Positions 7,958 to 27,818 of a stretch of 33,073 bases of DNA are shown here, piece by piece. Origin of the DNA: Paracoccaceae bacterium (GTDB taxonomy: Bacteria; Pseudomonadota; Alphaproteobacteria; Rhodobacterales; Rhodobacteraceae); contig JACIYW010000010.1 of assembly GCA_014359745.1 (NCBI GenBank), positions 1 to 33,073 on the forward strand, read 5' to 3'. Position numbers and translations under genes: made by a program. The notes beneath the pieces were generated by a model. The model was given only the letters and a program-made list of their open reading frames with translations. It was not told the DNA's origin and did no database searches. The stretch's first letter is position 1; each line of letters opens with the position of its first letter.

Positions 7958-7975
7958 ATGCCGCGTCGCAGCGAA
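7958..7975 (+). promoter_or_regulatory. Degenerate CTGC/GCAG-like site next to the ecm -35
   Basis: ATGCCGCGTCGCAGCGAA matches the ccr dyad at 10172-10189 at about 13 of 18 positions in the best alignment, and it abuts the -35 hexamer at 7976. The dyad symmetry is imperfect (4 of 6 pairs). It could be an activator or weak operator site, or chance in GC-rich DNA. Confidence 0.25.
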
Positions 7976-8004
7976 TTGACAAGATCACAAAATTCCCGTT
8001 AATA
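7976..8004 (+). promoter_or_regulatory. Strong predicted sigma-70 promoter of ecm
   Basis: A perfect -35 TTGACA (7976-7981) is followed after 17 nt by TTAATA (7999-8004), four of six matches to TATAAT. Transcription would begin near 8011, leaving a leader of about 50 nt. It is the best promoter match in the window. Confidence 0.7.
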
Positions 8005-8051
8005 GGTTGTTTCAGTAATAATGTGTCGCGCCAAAACCCACCATGAGTTGC

Positions 8052-8062: not shown

Positions 8063-10027
8063 ATGACCACCACCCAAAGGGATAATCCATGGCTGTTTCG
8101 CACCTATGCCGGTCATTCCACGGCGCGCGAATCGAACGCGCTTTATCGCGGCAATCTGGAGCGCGGCCAGACCGGGCTTTCGGTGGCCTTCGATCTGCCC
8201 ACCCAGACCGGATATGACAGCGACCACATTCTGGCGCGCGGCGAGGTGGGCAAGGTCGGCGTGCCGGTCTGTCATCTGGGCGACATGCGGATGCTGTTCG
8301 ACGGTATCCCGCTGGACAAGATGAACACCTCGATGACCATCAACGCCACCGCGCCCTGGCTGCTCGCCCTTTATATCGCGGTGGCCGAGGAACAGGGGGC
8401 GGATGTGGCCGCCCTGCAAGGCACGGTGCAAAACGACATCATCAAGGAATACCTGTCGCGCGGCACCTATATCTGCCCGCCCGAACCCAGCTTGCGGATG
8501 ATCACCGATGTGGCGGCCTATACCCGCGCGCATCTGCCCAAATGGAACCCGATGAACATCTGTTCCTATCACCTGCAAGAGGCGGGCGCGACGCCCGAAC
8601 AGGAACTGGCGTTTGCGCTGGCCACCGCCTGCGCGGTGCTGGACGACCTGCGTGGCAAGGTGGCGGTCGACGATTTCCCCGCGATGGTCGGGCGGATTTC
8701 GTTTTTCGTGAACGCGGGCATCCGCTTTGTGACCGAGATGTGCAAGATGCGCGCCTTTGTCGATCTGTGGGATGAGATCTGTCTGCACCGCTATGGCGTG
8801 CAGGACGCGAAATTCCGGCGCTTCCGCTATGGCGTGCAGGTCAATTCGCTGGGGCTGACCGAACAACAGCCCGAAAACAACGTCTATCGCATCTTGCTCG
8901 AGGCGCTGGCGGTCACGCTTTCGAAAAACGCCCGCGCGCGGGCCGTGCAACTGCCCGCCTGGAACGAGGCGCTGGGCCTGCCGCGCCCCTGGGATCAGCA
9001 ATGGTCGCTGCGCATGCAACAGATACTCGCCTATGAAACCGATCTGCTGGAATATGACGACCTGTTCGATGGCAACCCGGCGGTGGACCGCAAGGTCGCG
9101 GCGCTGAAAGAGGGGGCGCGCGCCGAACTTGCGGCCATTGACGGCATGGGCGGCGCGGTGGCCGCCATAGAGTACATGAAAACCCGCCTGGTCGAATCGA
9201 ATGCCGAACGTATCGCCCGGATCGAGGCGGGCGAAACGGTGGTGGTCGGTGTGAACCGCTGGCAGGATGGCGCGGCCTCGCCGCTGACATCGGGCCCCGA
9301 GGCGATCATGGCCGCCGATCCCGGCGCCGAGGCCGATCAGATATCCCGGCTTCAGGCCTGGCGGGAGGGGCGCGACCAGCGGGCCATCGAGGCCGCGCTG
9401 GCCGCGGTGCGCGCCGCAGCGCGCACGGGCGCCAATATCATGCCGCCGTCGATCGCGGCCGCCAGGGCCGGTGTCACCACCGGCGAATGGGCTGAAGAGA
9501 TGCGCGCCGCCTTTGGCGAATACCGCGCCCCCACCGGGGTCGCCACGGCCCCGTCAAACCGGACCGAGGGCCTGGACGAGGCGCGCGCCGCCGTCGATGC
9601 CGTCTCGGCACGGCTGGGGCGGCGCATGCGGTTTCTGGTGGCCAAGCCCGGCCTTGACGGCCATTCCAACGGCGCCGAACAGATCGCGTCCCGCGCCCGC
9701 GACTGCGGGATGGAGATGCATTACGCGGGTATCCGCCAGACCCCCGCCGAAATTGCCGCTGCCGCGCGCGATACCGGTGCCGATGTGATCGGCCTTTCGA
9801 TCCTGTCGGGCAGCCATATGGCGCTGGTGGCCGATGTTCTTGACCGGCTGGCGGAAATGGGGTTGCGCATCCCGGTCACCGTGGGCGGCATCATCCCCGC
9901 GGCGGACGCGGACCATCTGCGATCGTTGGGGGTGGCCGCCGTCTATACCCCCAAGGATTTCGAGATGAACCGCATCATGCTGGATCTTGCCGGCCTGGTG
10001 GCTGTGCCCCGCGAGGCGGCGGAGTGA
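8063..10027 (+). CDS. ecm: Ethylmalonyl-CoA mutase (coenzyme B12-dependent)
   Basis: A 654-residue protein. The N-terminal part (about 1-400) is a methylmalonyl-CoA mutase-type TIM barrel with GLSVAFDLPTQTGYDSDH and NTSMTINATAPWLLALY. The C-terminal domain (about 520-654) binds B12: D532-x-H534-x-x-G537 in KPGLDGHSNG gives the lower-axial His, followed by GLSILSGSH and VTVGGIIP. The start WLFRTYAGHS and single-chain layout match the MeaA/Ecm group rather than the two-subunit methylmalonyl-CoA mutase. Reaction: (2R)-ethylmalonyl-CoA to (2S)-methylsuccinyl-CoA, a committed step of the EMC pathway for acetyl-CoA assimilation in the cytoplasm. It lies 179 nt before ccr, whose product supplies its substrate via an epimerase. 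Length and motifs are complete. Confidence 0.95.
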   Translation: MTTTQRDNPWLFRTYAGHSTARESNALYRGNLERGQTGLSVAFDLPTQTGYDSDHILARGEVGKVGVPVCHLGDMRMLFDGIPLDKMNTSMTINATAPWLLALYIAVAEEQGADVAALQGTVQNDIIKEYLSRGTYICPPEPSLRMITDVAAYTRAHLPKWNPMNICSYHLQEAGATPEQELAFALATACAVLDDLRGKVAVDDFPAMVGRISFFVNAGIRFVTEMCKMRAFVDLWDEICLHRYGVQDAKFRRFRYGVQVNSLGLTEQQPENNVYRILLEALAVTLSKNARARAVQLPAWNEALGLPRPWDQQWSLRMQQILAYETDLLEYDDLFDGNPAVDRKVAALKEGARAELAAIDGMGGAVAAIEYMKTRLVESNAERIARIEAGETVVVGVNRWQDGAASPLTSGPEAIMAADPGAEADQISRLQAWREGRDQRAIEAALAAVRAAARTGANIMPPSIAAARAGVTTGEWAEEMRAAFGEYRAPTGVATAPSNRTEGLDEARAAVDAVSARLGRRMRFLVAKPGLDGHSNGAEQIASRARDCGMEMHYAGIRQTPAEIAAAARDTGADVIGLSILSGSHMALVADVLDRLAEMGLRIPVTVGGIIPAADADHLRSLGVAAVYTPKDFEMNRIMLDLAGLVAVPREAAE

Positions 10028-10080: not shown

Positions 10081-10092
10081 CTGCGGTTGCAG
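10081..10092. promoter_or_regulatory. CTGC-N4-GCAG dyad upstream of ccr
   Basis: CTGC-GGTT-GCAG is a perfect inverted repeat embedded in AAATGCTGCGGTTGCAG, about 115 bp before the ccr ATG and upstream of its predicted -35. It shares the left arm AATGCTGCGG with the pyc site at 27800. The spacing equals one of the two forms I recall for the PhaR motif (CTGC-N3-GCAG and CTGC-N4-GCAG). Confidence 0.5.
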
Positions 10093-10125
10093 GGTCATAA
10101 AGTTACAAAAAAGAACTAACTGGTA

Positions 10126-10154
10126 TTGCAATGTTGCGCGTGTTGCCATATCAG
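10126..10154 (+). promoter_or_regulatory. Predicted promoter of ccr
   Basis: TTGCAA (10126-10131) and TATCAG (10149-10154) are 17 nt apart, which would start transcription near 10161. The -35 lies inside the palindrome ATTGCAAT (10125-10132). Its TTGCAA core resembles the TTTGCAAA element reported for ScfR-type short-chain acyl-CoA regulators (PccR, RamB). Regulation by such a protein is speculation. Confidence 0.45.
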
Positions 10155-10171
10155 CGGCGCTGTGGCACAGT

Positions 10172-10189
10172 AATGCTGCGATGCAGCAA
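10172..10189. promoter_or_regulatory. CTGC-N3-GCAG operator-like dyad before ccr
   Basis: AATGCTGCGATGCAGCAA contains the perfect inverted repeat TGCTGC-GAT-GCAGCA (10174-10188). It lies just downstream of the predicted transcription start and 18 bp before the ccr ATG, a position suited to repression. It matches the pyc-upstream site at 27800-27817 at 16 of 18 bases. Confidence 0.6.
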
Positions 10190-10206
10190 CTCGACAGGAG
10201 GTTTCC

Positions 10207-11499
10207 ATGGCTCTCGATACCCGGACCGGCATCACGCCCTACGAGGCACCGATGAAAGACCTTTACGCGGTCGGCGAAATGCCGCCCCTGGGCCATGTAC
10301 CCGCGAAAATGCACGCCTGGGCGATCCGCCGCGAACGCCACGGCGAACCCGACAAGGCCATGCAGCTTGAAGTCGTGGAAACCCCGGCCATCGACAGCCA
10401 CGAGGTGCTGGTGATGGTGATGGCGGCGGGCGTCAATTACAACGGCGTCTGGGCCGGGCTTGGCATCCCCATCTCTCCCTTCGACGGGCACGGCGCGCCC
10501 TATCACATCGCGGGGTCCGATGCGGCGGGCATCGTCTGGGCGGTGGGATCGGCTGTCAAACGCTGGAAGGTCGGCGATGAGGTGGTGATCCACTGCAATC
10601 AGGACGACGGCGATGATGAGGAATGCAACGGCGGCGATCCGATGTTCTCCCCCTCGCAGCGCATCTGGGGCTATGAAACCCCCGATGGCAGTTTCGCGCA
10701 GTTCACGCGCGTGCAGGCGCAGCAGCTCATGCACCGCCCGCGCCATCTGAGCTGGGAGGAATCGGCCTGCTACACGCTGACGCTGGCCACGGCCTATCGG
10801 ATGCTGTTCGGCCACCGGCCCCATGTGCTCAAACCCGGCGACAACGTGCTGGTCTGGGGCGCGTCGGGGGGGCTTGGGTCTTATGCCATCCAGTTGATCA
10901 ATACGGCGGGCGCGAATGCGATCGGGGTGATTTCCGACGAAGACAAGCGCGATTTCGTCATGGGATTGGGCGCCAAGGGCGTCATCAACCGCACGGATTT
11001 CAAATGCTGGGGCCAGATGCCGACCGTCAACACCCCCGAATATGCCGCCTGGTTCAAGGAGGTGCGCAAGTTCGGCGCGGCGATCTGGGCGGTCACCGGC
11101 AAGGGCAACAATGTTGACATGGTCTTCGAACATCCGGGCGAGGCGACGTTTCCGGTTTCCGTCTTTCTGGTCAAACGCGGCGGCATGGTGGTGATCTGCG
11201 CGGGCACCACCGGCTATAACCTGACGCTGGACGCGCGCTATCTGTGGATGCACCAGAAGCGCGTGCAGGGCAGCCATTTCGCCAATCTCAAACAGGCGGC
11301 GGCGGCCAACAAGCTGATGATCGAACGCCGCCTTGATCCCTGCATGTCAGAGGTGTTCCCCTGGTCCGACATCCCCGCCGCCCATGTGAAAATGCGCCGC
11401 AACGAACACAAGCCCGGCAACATGGCGGTGCTGGTGCAGGCGCCGCAGACCGGCCTGCGCACGTTTGAAGACACGCTCGAGGCCAGCCGGGCAGGGTAG
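10207..11499 (+). CDS. ccr: Crotonyl-CoA carboxylase/reductase
   Basis: A 430-residue medium-chain dehydrogenase/reductase, full length for Ccr. The GroES-like N-terminal half includes AAGVNYNGVWAGLG, with the Asn that helps form the CO2 pocket, and WGYETPDGSF, with the pocket Glu. The Rossmann part carries VWGASGGLGSYAIQL for NADPH binding, and WMHQKRVQGSHFAN provides the conserved His near the C-terminus. Reaction: crotonyl-CoA + CO2 + NADPH to (2S)-ethylmalonyl-CoA, the defining step of the EMC pathway. AGGAGG at 10196-10201, five bases before the ATG, gives strong initiation. Its own promoter and two CTGC/GCAG dyads in the 179-bp gap after ecm suggest separate control. No domain is missing. 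Confidence 0.97.
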   Translation: MALDTRTGITPYEAPMKDLYAVGEMPPLGHVPAKMHAWAIRRERHGEPDKAMQLEVVETPAIDSHEVLVMVMAAGVNYNGVWAGLGIPISPFDGHGAPYHIAGSDAAGIVWAVGSAVKRWKVGDEVVIHCNQDDGDDEECNGGDPMFSPSQRIWGYETPDGSFAQFTRVQAQQLMHRPRHLSWEESACYTLTLATAYRMLFGHRPHVLKPGDNVLVWGASGGLGSYAIQLINTAGANAIGVISDEDKRDFVMGLGAKGVINRTDFKCWGQMPTVNTPEYAAWFKEVRKFGAAIWAVTGKGNNVDMVFEHPGEATFPVSVFLVKRGGMVVICAGTTGYNLTLDARYLWMHQKRVQGSHFANLKQAAAANKLMIERRLDPCMSEVFPWSDIPAAHVKMRRNEHKPGNMAVLVQAPQTGLRTFEDTLEASRAG

Positions 11500-21384: not shown

Positions 21385-21477
21385 GGAGTAAACCGTAACT
21401 TGCCTCGCAATTCCTTGATTGGTTATTTCGGTTGTCGGCCGGTATGCTTCGGCGCAGCAATGAGGTGGTTCGGATCG

Positions 21478-24323: not shown

Positions 24324-27300
24324 TCATTCCAGTTCCACCAACAGATCCTTGGCGTCGATCTGCGTGCCCGGCTGCACATGCACGGCCTTGATCACGGCGG
24401 CGCGATCGGCGTGCAGGCCGGTTTCCATCTTCATCGCCTCGATGGTCAGCAACAGATCGCCGGCCTTCACATGCGCGCCCACCGTTGCCGCGATGCTGGC
24501 CACCACGCCGGGCATCGGCGCGCCGATGTGATCGGCGTTGCCGTCAACGGCCTTGGGGCGTGCGGCGGTGGTGGCCTTGACGGCGCGGTTCGCCACCCGG
24601 ATCACCCGTGGCTGGCCGTTCAGTTCAAAGAACACCTTCACATCGCCGTCATCGCCGGTTTCGCCCACCGCTTGCAGGCGGATTTCCAGGGTCTTGCCCG
24701 GATCGATTTCGGCGCTGACCTCGGCCCCCGGTTCCATGCCGTAAAAGAACGCGGACGTGGGCAGGGTGCGCACCGGGCCATAGATGCGGTGGCGGCCCAT
24801 GTAATCCAGATAGACCTTGGGATACATGAGGTACCCGTTCAGATCCTCGTCATCGACGCGGAAACCATCCAGATCCCGCGACAGTTTCGCGCGCGTTTCC
24901 TCCAGATCGACGGCGGGCAGATGCGCGCCGGGGCGGTCGGTTTGCGGGGCCTCGCCCTTGAGCGCCTTTTTCATGATCGCCGCCGGCCAGCCCCCCGGCG
25001 GCTGGCCCAGATTGCCGCGCAGCATGTCCAGAACCGAATCGGGGAAGGACACATCCACCGCCGGGTCTTCGACCTGCGCACGGGTCAGCCCCTGCGCGAC
25101 CATCATCAGCGCCATGTCGCCCACCACCTTGGACGACGGCGTTACCTTGACGATATCGCCAAACATCATGTTCACATCGGCATAGGTCTGCGCCACCTCG
25201 TGCCAGCGGTCTTCCAGCCCCAGGCCGCGCGCCTGCGCCTTGAGATTGGTGAACTGCCCGCCGGGCATCTCGTGCAGATATACCTCGGACGCGGGGGCCT
25301 GAAGGCCGGTCTCGAACGCCGCATACTGGCCGCGCACCGCTTCCCAGTAATTCGACATCTCGCGCACGCGGGCGATATCCAGCCCGGTGTCGCGGTCGGT
25401 GTGGCGCAGCGCCTCGACGATGGTGCCAAGCGTCGCCTGCGACGTGTTGCCCGACAGCGCGTCCATCGCGCAATCGACGGCATCGACACCCACCTCGGCC
25501 GCCGCAAGGATGGTGGCGCAGGCGATGCCGGCCGTATCGTGGGTGTGGAAATGGATCGGCAGACCCACCTCTTCCTTCAACGCCTTCACCAGCACCCGCG
25601 CGGCGGCGGGTTTCAAAAGCCCCGCCATGTCCTTCAGCCCCAGCACATGCGCGCCCGCATCGCGCAACGCGCGCGCGGTATCGACATAGTATTTCAGATC
25701 GTATTTGGCGCGGTCGGGATCAAGGATATTGCCGGTATAGCACACCGATCCTTCGCAGATCTTGTTGGCTTCCAGCACCGCGTCCATGGCCACGCGCATG
25801 TTGGGCACCCAGTTCAGGCTGTCGAAAACCCGAAACACATCGATGCCGGTTTCGGCGGCCTGTTTGACAAAGAACCGCACCACATTGTCGGGATAGTTGG
25901 TATAGCCAACCGCGTTCGATCCGCGCAGCAGCATCTGCGTCATCACATTGGGCAGGCGTTCGCGGATGTCGCGCAGGCGTTGCCAGGGGCATTCCTGCAA
26001 GAACCGGTAGGCCACATCGAACGTGGCCCCGCCCCAGCATTCCACGCTGAACAGTTCGGGCAGGTTCGCGGCATAGGCGGGGGTTGCGTTCACCATGTCG
26101 ATGGAACGCATCCGGGTAGCCAGCAGGCTTTGATGCCCGTCGCGCATCGTGGTGTCGGTGATCAGCAGCCGCTTTTGCGCCGCCATCCAGTCGGCCACGG
26201 CCTGCGGGCCCTTCTCTATCAGCAAATTCCGGGTGCCGGGGGCAGGGGCGGCGCGCCGTTCGGGGGCGACGGGCAGGCGCGCATCATTGGCCGGGCGCGG
26301 GCGGCCCGCGGTTTCGGGATGCCCGTTGACGGTGATATCGGCGATATAGGTCAGGATCCTGGTCGCCCGGTCGCGGCGCTTGCGGAAATTGAACAGATCG
26401 TCGGCGGTGTCGATGAATTTGGTGGTGTAGGTATTGTCAAGAAACACCGGATGTTTCAGCAGGTTCTCGACAAAGGCGATGTTGGTCGAAACCCCGCGAA
26501 TGCGAAATTCGCGCAGCGCGCGATCCATGCGCGCGATCGCCGTTTCGGGCGTCTGCGCCCAGGCGGTGACCTTGACCAGAAGGCTGTCGTAATAGCGGGT
26601 CACAACCGATCCCGCATAGGCGGTGCCGCCATCCAGCCTGATCCCCATGCCCGTGGCGCTGCGATAGGCGGTGATGCGGCCGTAATCGGGGATGAAGTTG
26701 TTCTGCGGGTCTTCGGTCGTCACCCGGCATTGCAGGGCATGGCCCGACAGGGTGATATCGCCCTGGCTGGGCGCGCCGGTCGCCTCGGCGATGGTCTTGC
26801 CCTCGGCAATCAGGATCTGGGCGCGCACGATGTCGATGCCGGTGACTTCCTCTGTCACCGTGTGTTCGACCTGGATGCGGGGGTTTACTTCGATGAAATA
26901 GAATTTCTCATCGTCCATATCCATCAGGAATTCGATGGTGCCCGCGTTCTGATACCCCACATGGCGGGCGATCTTCAGCCCCAGATCGCAGATTTCGGCG
27001 CGCTGTGCGTCGGTCAGATAGGGGGCGGGGGCGCGTTCGACCACTTTCTGATTGCGGCGCTGCACGGTGCAGTCGCGTTCATAAAGATGGTAAAGGCCGC
27101 CGTGCTGGTCGCCCAGTACCTGCACCTCGACGTGGCGGGCGCGCTGGATCATCTTTTCCAGATAGCCCTCGCCATTGCCAAAGGCGGCCTCGGCCTCGCG
27201 CCGCCCCTCGCGCACCTTGGTTTCCACCTCGTCCGCGCCCATGATCGGGCGCATGCCGCGCCCGCCGCCGCCCCAGGACGCCTTGAGCATCAGGGGATAA

Positions 27301-27764
27301 CCCACCGCATCGGCCATGGCGCGGATGTCATTCATATCCTCGCCCAGCACCTCGGTGGCGGGGATCACCGGCACGCCGGCCTCTATCGCCACGCGCCGGG
27401 CGCTGGCCTTGTCGCCAAGGGCGCGCATCGTGTCGGCGCGCGGGCCGATGAACTTGATCCCCGCCGCGTCGCAGGCATCGACCAGTTCGGGGTTTTCCGA
27501 CAACAGGCCATAACCGGGATGGATCGCATCCGCCCCGGCCATTTTCGCCACGCGGATGATTTCGGGGATGGACAGATAGGCCGCCACCGGCCCCAGCCCC
27601 TTGCCGATCTGGTAAGCCTCATCGGCCTTGAACCGGTGGAGACCCAGCTTGTCTTCCTCGGCATAAACGGCGACGGTGCGTTTGCCCATCTCATTGGCCG
27701 CGCGCATGATGCGGATGGCGATCTCGCCGCGATTGGCGATCAGGATCTTGCGAAATTCTGCCAT
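24324..27764 (-). CDS. pyc: Pyruvate carboxylase
   Basis: A 1146-residue single-chain enzyme of standard length. Biotin carboxylase (about 1-450) has KASWGGGGRGM for ATP and EVNPRIQVEHTVTEEVTG. Carboxyltransferase (about 530-800) has TDTTMRDGHQSLLATRMRS and the metal His pair in IHFHTHDTAG. A PYC-specific middle domain follows, and the C-terminal biotinyl domain carries EAMKMETG with the biotinylated Lys at 1112. Reaction: pyruvate + bicarbonate + ATP to oxaloacetate, refilling the TCA cycle. The ATG at 27764 is chosen because MAEFRKILIANRGEIAIRIM is the canonical start and GGGGA precedes it; the open frame upstream overlaps the promoter. CTGC/GCAG dyads in the divergent region suggest control shared with ccr. 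Confidence 0.97.
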   Translation of the reverse strand: MAEFRKILIANRGEIAIRIMRAANEMGKRTVAVYAEEDKLGLHRFKADEAYQIGKGLGPVAAYLSIPEIIRVAKMAGADAIHPGYGLLSENPELVDACDAAGIKFIGPRADTMRALGDKASARRVAIEAGVPVIPATEVLGEDMNDIRAMADAVGYPLMLKASWGGGGRGMRPIMGADEVETKVREGRREAEAAFGNGEGYLEKMIQRARHVEVQVLGDQHGGLYHLYERDCTVQRRNQKVVERAPAPYLTDAQRAEICDLGLKIARHVGYQNAGTIEFLMDMDDEKFYFIEVNPRIQVEHTVTEEVTGIDIVRAQILIAEGKTIAEATGAPSQGDITLSGHALQCRVTTEDPQNNFIPDYGRITAYRSATGMGIRLDGGTAYAGSVVTRYYDSLLVKVTAWAQTPETAIARMDRALREFRIRGVSTNIAFVENLLKHPVFLDNTYTTKFIDTADDLFNFRKRRDRATRILTYIADITVNGHPETAGRPRPANDARLPVAPERRAAPAPGTRNLLIEKGPQAVADWMAAQKRLLITDTTMRDGHQSLLATRMRSIDMVNATPAYAANLPELFSVECWGGATFDVAYRFLQECPWQRLRDIRERLPNVMTQMLLRGSNAVGYTNYPDNVVRFFVKQAAETGIDVFRVFDSLNWVPNMRVAMDAVLEANKICEGSVCYTGNILDPDRAKYDLKYYVDTARALRDAGAHVLGLKDMAGLLKPAAARVLVKALKEEVGLPIHFHTHDTAGIACATILAAAEVGVDAVDCAMDALSGNTSQATLGTIVEALRHTDRDTGLDIARVREMSNYWEAVRGQYAAFETGLQAPASEVYLHEMPGGQFTNLKAQARGLGLEDRWHEVAQTYADVNMMFGDIVKVTPSSKVVGDMALMMVAQGLTRAQVEDPAVDVSFPDSVLDMLRGNLGQPPGGWPAAIMKKALKGEAPQTDRPGAHLPAVDLEETRAKLSRDLDGFRVDDEDLNGYLMYPKVYLDYMGRHRIYGPVRTLPTSAFFYGMEPGAEVSAEIDPGKTLEIRLQAVGETGDDGDVKVFFELNGQPRVIRVANRAVKATTAARPKAVDGNADHIGAPMPGVVASIAATVGAHVKAGDLLLTIEAMKMETGLHADRAAVIKAVHVQPGTQIDAKDLLVELE

Positions 27765-27789: not shown

Positions 27790-27818
27790 ATGCTACGGCA
27801 ATGCTGCGGTGCAGTAAA
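27790..27818 (-). promoter_or_regulatory. Predicted pyc promoter
   Basis: Minus-strand TTTACT (27818-27813) and TAGCAT (27795-27790) are 17 nt apart, each matching the sigma-70 consensus at four of six bases. The CTGC-N3-GCAG dyad at 27804-27814 falls in the spacer and edges the -35, the same arrangement as at the patatin-gene promoter. Confidence 0.4.

Follow-up and report, generated by a model that had tools for sequence, protein, structure and literature searches.

We describe here a set of short dyads upstream of ccr, ecm and pyc in a 33,073-nucleotide stretch of DNA (the window), and we think it probable, with fair confidence, that PhaR, the repressor that binds PHB, uses these boxes as its operators. 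The ethylmalonyl-CoA pathway makes biomass from acetate in many bacteria, including many Rhodobacteraceae, and the boxes probably couple the PHB state of the cell to this pathway. Carbon storage may be in direct control of this central pathway, a possibility raised by the presence of a PhaR-like box at the key acetate-assimilation gene ccr in nearly all relatives compared and by its breakage in a few in which no PhaR was found. The sites, their conservation, the form they have in common with phaP, the presence of PhaR, and the broken ccr boxes where no PhaR was found are observations. The regulator and its box are already known, and it is the targets and their wide conservation that appear to be new. 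A 2023 Paracoccus study notes that the up-regulation of the ethylmalonyl-CoA pathway "remains enigmatic" (PMC10370305), and a conserved PhaR-type box at both ccr and ecm is a specific candidate answer. If it is correct, PHB storage and the use of its precursors would be under one sensor, which is relevant to the engineering of both.

The window belongs to a genome of 2.93 Mb in 262 contigs, whose best ccr matches in named genomes are Rhodobacterales. The gene for crotonyl-CoA carboxylase/reductase, ccr, lies on the plus strand at 10207..11499 (TIGR01751, 618.1 bits), and the two dyads that an earlier note had reported 5' of it are present as described, an N4 form, CTGC-GGTT-GCAG, at 10081-10092 and an N3 form, CTGC-GAT-GCAG, at 10176-10186, ahead of the ATG at 10207. 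The second is the core of the proximal candidate operator AATGCTGC-GAT-GCAGCAAC (10172..10190, plus strand). The gene for pyruvate carboxylase, pyc, is on the minus strand at 24324..27764 (TIGR01235, 1764.7 bits), and its candidate operator, TTTACTGC-ACC-GCAGCATT, is on the same strand at 27800..27818, 36-54 bp 5' of the ATG, with its core CTGC-GGT-GCAG at 27804-27814, 40 bp before the minus-strand ATG at 27764. The close likeness claimed for the ccr and pyc sites is borne out, with AATGCTGCGATGCAGCAA and AATGCTGCGGTGCAGTAA differing at two of 18 bases. The promoter said to lie between the two ccr dyads fared less well: a sigma-70 scan of the plus strand did not recover it, and it stands as a by-eye reading of conservation, in which TTGCAA-17-TATCAG (10126..10154, plus strand) is the putative ccr core promoter and TTGCAA-17-TATnnn recurs in many ccr loci. 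The proximal box is situated between this putative -10 and the start codon.

Upstream of ccr on the plus strand is an open reading frame with hits to the methylmalonyl-CoA mutase family, which we name ecm (ethylmalonyl-CoA mutase; 8063..10027) from its position beside ccr. The frame opens at 8021, and the likelier start is 8063, which is adjacent to an AGGAG. Its candidate operator, ATGCCGC-GTC-GCAGCGA (7958..7974, plus strand), is directly 5' of a TTGACA (7976-7981), and fits only the looser YGC-RNY-GCR. A weaker candidate box at 21444..21460 (plus strand) has the minus-strand aconitase gene acnA on one side and a DUF1223 gene on the other. We also note that ecm and ccr point the same way in the window, whereas they are on opposite strands in 67/67 relatives with ecm at above 60% identity.

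These boxes resemble those published for PhaR in other bacteria. In the published model PhaR represses in the absence of PHB, and PHB granules draw it off the DNA (PMC12542648). The Sinorhizobium meliloti protein (PhaR/AniA) has palindromic YGCRNYGCR boxes and exerts central carbon control beyond PHB; Pyc, PpdK and GltA are in a PhaR-repressed module, the Pyc module is PHB-responsive, and pyc is a named target, although it is missing from the motif table (PMC12542648). The two systems differ in that ccr and the word ethylmalonyl are absent from the main text of that paper, whereas the window has boxes at ccr, ecm and pyc. For Rhodobacter sphaeroides PhaR that source reports CTGCNNNGCAG, and it cites phasin-gene repression in R. 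sphaeroides and Paracoccus denitrificans. In the genomes studied here phaP is next to phaR. Phasin and phaR are the only targets named for those two species in the sources consulted; our proposal adds ccr, ecm and pyc. In Bradyrhizobium diazoefficiens the PhaR consensus is TGCRNYGCASMA and the ppc box is TGCGCTGCGGCA, the ppc promoter being bound more weakly (PMC6201568). That ppc 12-mer is identical to the one at several ccr promoters (e.g. L032 and L036), although ethylmalonyl, crotonyl-CoA and pyruvate carboxylase are absent from the main text of that paper. Taken together, the published YGCRNYGCR, TGCRNYGCASMA and TGCGCTGCGGCA allow the variants seen at ccr and ecm. Among the matches listed in the open-access literature there is no report that puts PhaR at ccr or ecm or at any other gene of the ethylmalonyl-CoA pathway, which is no proof that none exists.

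Within the window alone the exact core barely exceeds the chance level, with six copies of CTGC-N3/4-GCAG against 2.22 +/- 1.53 expected (4/100 shuffles reached six), three of which are elsewhere than at ccr and pyc. In the whole genome the exact core shows a moderate excess, with 76 copies per strand compared with 43 for the reversed pattern. For the extended box the excess is larger: AWTGCTGCRNYGCAGCAWT with up to three mismatches gives 18 sites versus 3 for its reversed pattern; the two best are those at ccr and phaP, and pyc is among the next three, although this pattern was designed after the ccr, pyc and phaP sites had been viewed. The Bradyrhizobium consensus TGCRNYGCASMA is independent of the window's genome, and on both strands it returns 56 rows versus 7, with exact matches at ccr (both strands) and at pyc (minus strand). 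We also trained a matrix on 67 phaP boxes, drawn from 41 of the 44 other genomes with a usable phaP upstream region, the window's own genome being excluded; since the training boxes were located with the expression TGC-RNY-GCA, the matrix describes that class. It ranks the sites of the 33-kb window as ccr (25.84), pyc (21.14), the acnA/DUF1223 site (17.42) and ecm (10.58). Across the parts of the genome scanned, which were stretches around some of the pattern hits, the top three are phaP (28.8), ccr (25.8) and pyc (21.1). These are followed by sites at a gene for a MaoC-type hydratase (21.0), in the gap separating a DUF1127 ORF from an Mrp-type ATPase gene (19.5), in that separating an H-NS-type ORF from a patatin-like gene (18.7), at acnA/DUF1223 (17.4) and at typA/MFS (16.5). 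By our reading of the open reading frames, seven of the top eight places are intergenic and the eighth is at the 5' end of DUF1223; of twelve places scoring 10 to 16.5, the three inspected closely are all inside ORFs. In the window's genome phaP adjoins phaR, with the upstream box CATGCTGCAGTGCAGCATT, and phaC and phaZ are also beside phaR. The expectation that the upstream regions of all four would score highest holds for phaP, which is first, but phaC, phaZ and phaR of this genome showed no box above 10.

The ccr box is retained in nearly all relatives. The comparison covered ccr in named genomes and took the best 80 of at least 597 loci. Within 300 bp 5' of ccr, 30/80 have the exact CTGC-N3/4-GCAG, against 103/1694 control windows from the same loci; this form was dropped as a conservation test because it misses the usual GCGG half-site; the exact CTGC-N3-GCAG is a minority form (19/80 loci), and the GCGG form is commoner. 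Side-by-side reading of the promoters places the exact copies within a more general element. Over the 80 bp that precede ccr, CYGC-N3-GCRG occurs in 79/80 loci and 191/6615 control windows, CTGC-RNY-GCRGC in 73/80 and 28/6615, and ATTCTGC-RNY-GC(A/G)GC in 71/80 and 0/6615. This relaxed form was picked after the promoters had been viewed, and it is the control windows that carry the weight of the test. The sole locus lacking the loosest form is that of Albimonas (L078). With the promoters aligned by the box, the conserved stretch extends from a C at -5 to an A at +12, beyond which conservation drops; six columns are set by the anchoring expression, and among the free ones T at -2 and R are found in 80/80, and Y and C at 11 in 79/80. 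The middle of the box is R, N, Y, which matches the published core.

The other promoters have related boxes. CYGC-RNY-GCRG is present at phaP in 45/45 upstream regions (200 bp) versus 82/2548 control windows, often as paired boxes about 28 bp apart. Here phaP was located beside phaR by means of the PhaP of the window's genome, 44/50 genomes being usable; the phasin family TIGR01841 was tried as a finder and set aside, having hit 3/50 genomes, none over the cut-off. At ecm the same expression is found in 64/70 upstream regions (220 bp; 69 loci and the window, with distances measured from 8021, 42 bp before the likelier start) versus 92/2388 control windows, and the commonest form is ATGCCGC-RNY-GCAGCGA. 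At pyc it is found in 32/48 (120 bp) versus 84/4329; two genomes with a contig-end cut (G003, G045), one with no match over threshold (G026) and one second copy (G050) were left out. Nine of the 16 pyc promoters lacking CYGC-N3-GCRG have an N4 relative near the start (control 32/7614). The sites singled out in the earlier note are thus kept at orthologous promoters of both genes, at 79/80 in the relaxed form for ccr and at 32/48 for pyc. The sample of 50 genomes behind some of these sets is non-random, comprising the 33 best ccr matches in order and 17 lower-ranked ones, most of them picked for a site; the 80-locus ccr counts are unaffected by this hand-picking, and the ccr count of 21/51 in that sample is not a rate. 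Several pyc upstream regions of relatives (L226, L230 and L236 among them) also contain TTAGCGCTAA-like palindromes, which we take to be LacI/PckR-like, and some of these relatives have a CTGC-RNYY-GC element near the pyc start.

We also followed the distribution of PhaR itself. The window's genome has one copy (TIGR01848, 157.8 bits; cut-off 109.45), and PhaR is present in 50/50 genomes of the relatives sample, which made a comparison of PhaR and motif in these first relatives uninformative, and genomes without PhaR were therefore sought. Among 296 genomes of the family, one per genus and filtered at 95% completeness, 290 have PhaR. In the six with no match, ccr is above 80% identity in one (G053), at 50-54% in three, and below threshold in two; ATTCTGCRNYGCRGCR is found in 0/6 of them and in 11/14 PhaR-bearing genomes, a comparison in which a close ccr is present in only one of the six. 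Within the genus of G053, ccr is present in 8/8 genomes and PhaR in 3/8. Two of the three PhaR-bearing members have an intact ccr box, GATTCTGC-GCT-GCGGCA in G346 and ATACTGC-ACT-GCAGCA in G352, and in G348 it is altered. In the five with no PhaR match the right half of the box is broken in all, for example GATTCTGC-GCC-ACGGCT in G053 and G350, with TTGCA-N-TATTGCGC kept in 5/5 of these promoters and AATTACAAA in 3/5. These five genomes are 100, 98, 91, 81 and 66% complete, so that in the two least complete a PhaR may have been missed. Pooling all comparisons, CYGC-N3-GCRG within about 80 bp of ccr is intact in 66/73 genomes with PhaR (51/51 for the window and the 50-genome sample, 13/19 in the wider set, and 2/3 in the mixed genus) and in 0/5 without; the seven exceptions are 6/19 and 1/3. 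Fisher's test gives p = 3.8e-5, or 0.0017 with the three PhaR-less genomes that are at least 90% complete, values which are optimistic since the genomes are related. All PhaR-less cases with a close ccr are in one genus and so represent few losses, which the ccr protein tree of the genus does not allow to be counted. Upstream of ecm, CYGC-N3-GCRG occurs in 0/6 regions of this genus including that of the PhaR-bearing G346, and ecm is thus uninformative for the comparison.

The interpretation of the dyads as PhaR operators is partly supported: the N3 sites stood up in most computational tests, but the support does not clearly extend to the N4 form nor to phaC, phaZ and phaR. The earlier note gave both spacings as reported PhaR forms; in the sources consulted CTGCNNNGCAG is the sole form given for Rhodobacter, and none of them shows PhaR on the N4 form. 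The distal ccr element, CTGC-GGTT-GCAG (10081..10092, plus strand), is only a possible PhaR site. Its 12-mer is identical in Yoonia sp. Kmv28, and N4 elements are enriched 5' of ccr (23/80 versus 67/5020 control windows). In 81 ccr promoters, a distal dyad ahead of the conserved block described below has the N3 form in 18 and the N4 form in 21; another 28 show neither form, and the block itself is unrecognised in the other 14, leaving the distal element unrecognised in 42/81, about half.

Between the distal element and the putative promoter is a conserved CATAAAGTTACAAAA block (10096..10110, plus strand), and a related block is found in 78/81 ccr upstream regions with a loose expression and in 67/81 at the expected distance. 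Such CATAAAATTACAAAA-like blocks 5' of the ccr -35 are widely conserved (the window and L032-L111), and each is perhaps the site of another, activating factor. This bears on the likeliest of the alternatives, that PhaR binds these boxes with an effect that is minor or of the opposite sign, as at a road-block or an activator site, while the main driver is another factor, perhaps acting at the CATAAAATTACAAAA block. The presence of a related block in most ccr promoters, the retention of AATTACAAA in three of five PhaR-less promoters, and accounts of PhaR both repressing and activating targets in rhizobia (in the sources consulted) are in its favour, but the proximal box lies downstream of the putative -10, where binding usually represses. 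We regard this alternative as possible, at perhaps one chance in a handful or a little better.

Somewhat less likely, and in our view doubtful, is that the ccr/ecm box belongs to a different ethylmalonyl-CoA regulator with a PhaR-like site. The usual ccr (GATTCTGC-RNY-GCGGCA) and ecm (CCGC-RNY-GCAGCGA) forms do differ consistently from the phaP form, and the ccr box is missing in the 6/19 PhaR-bearing genomes noted above. However, exact PhaR-consensus versions occupy the same ccr position in some genomes, the window's included, and both the breakage of the box in the five genomes of one genus with no PhaR match and the distribution of ATTCTGCRNYGCRGCR follow PhaR. A search for another regulator, confined to the ecm-ccr neighbourhoods, showed a geneless gap in the window and an acyltransferase between the two genes in the four relatives scanned.

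It is very unlikely that the ccr box works as a hairpin of the 5' leader RNA and not as a DNA operator. CTGC can pair with GCAG and with GCGG, and pairing survives the variation seen, since position 1 is T in 76/80 and position 9 is A or G (the latter being built into the expression used); a four- or six-pair stem forms in two of three leaders folded, the third piece having begun at the box. But the three leaders fold no better than shuffled sequences (z of -0.29, 0.87 and 0.86), R and Y are conserved even though the RNY triplet would form the unpaired loop, and the ecm box of the window is upstream of its -35-like TTGACA. Chance recurrence of palindromes in GC-rich DNA, which the modest excess of the exact core in the window might suggest, is negligible given the absence of the long ccr form from every control window, the matrix ranking, and the control counts for ccr, ecm and phaP.

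Returning to PhaR as a repressor at these boxes, binding, repression, PHB dependence and a graded response are what we infer from the comparisons. With little PHB, free PhaR would occupy the YGC-RNY-GCR boxes of ccr, ecm and pyc, positioned between the putative -10 and the start codon at ccr, against the -35 at ecm, and close to the start at pyc, and would keep expression of these genes low. A surplus of acetyl-CoA would lead to PHB granules, PhaR would be pulled onto them, and its withdrawal would free the genes for phasin, the ethylmalonyl-CoA pathway and pyruvate carboxylase together; during growth on acetate, surplus acetyl-CoA should favour PHB and the pathway alike. Because one half-site at ccr and ecm is often off consensus, PhaR is predicted to bind there more weakly than at phaP, and hence to give a graded response. 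The occurrence at several ccr promoters of TGCGCTGCGGCA, the weaker-bound Bradyrhizobium ppc box, makes such grading plausible. It counts against PhaR that the commonest ccr form has GCGG, which is rare among phaP sites. The broadest form of this proposal, to which we give slightly better than even chances, is that the family-wide regulator missing for the ethylmalonyl-CoA pathway is PhaR, with PHB granules gauging acetyl-CoA surplus and phasin, ccr, ecm, a MaoC-type hydratase and pyc being freed through graded boxes.

Other studies touch on parts of this scheme. RamB/ScfR of P. denitrificans, a protein from the same group of organisms, likewise ties together acetyl-CoA assimilation routes but differs in its target, the glyoxylate cycle, and in acting on a pair of boxes that an 18-bp spacer separates, and Ccr is induced before Icl in Paracoccus after a shift to acetate (PMC10370305). 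In Methylorubrum a role of PhaR in acetyl-CoA flux partitioning is reported, and when phaR was mutated in an engineered strain 1021 genes changed relative to the control, with ccr unmentioned in the main text (PMC6520949). The main text of a 2025 Cereibacter transposon screen makes no mention of PhaR (PMC12632250).

Several further boxes are of note. A strong box is situated 34 bp 5' of the gene for the MaoC-type enoyl-CoA hydratase (L023/L331, 1113-1129), and this enzyme is a candidate supplier of crotonyl-CoA for Ccr. Box-like sites occur just 5' of typA/BipA in the window's genome and in one relative (L268 at about 978 and L312 at about 1501), and in Rhodobacter sp. KR11 (L310, 1501) an HpcH/HpaI-family (CitE-like) ORF is overlapped at its 5' end by an ATTCTGC-type box.
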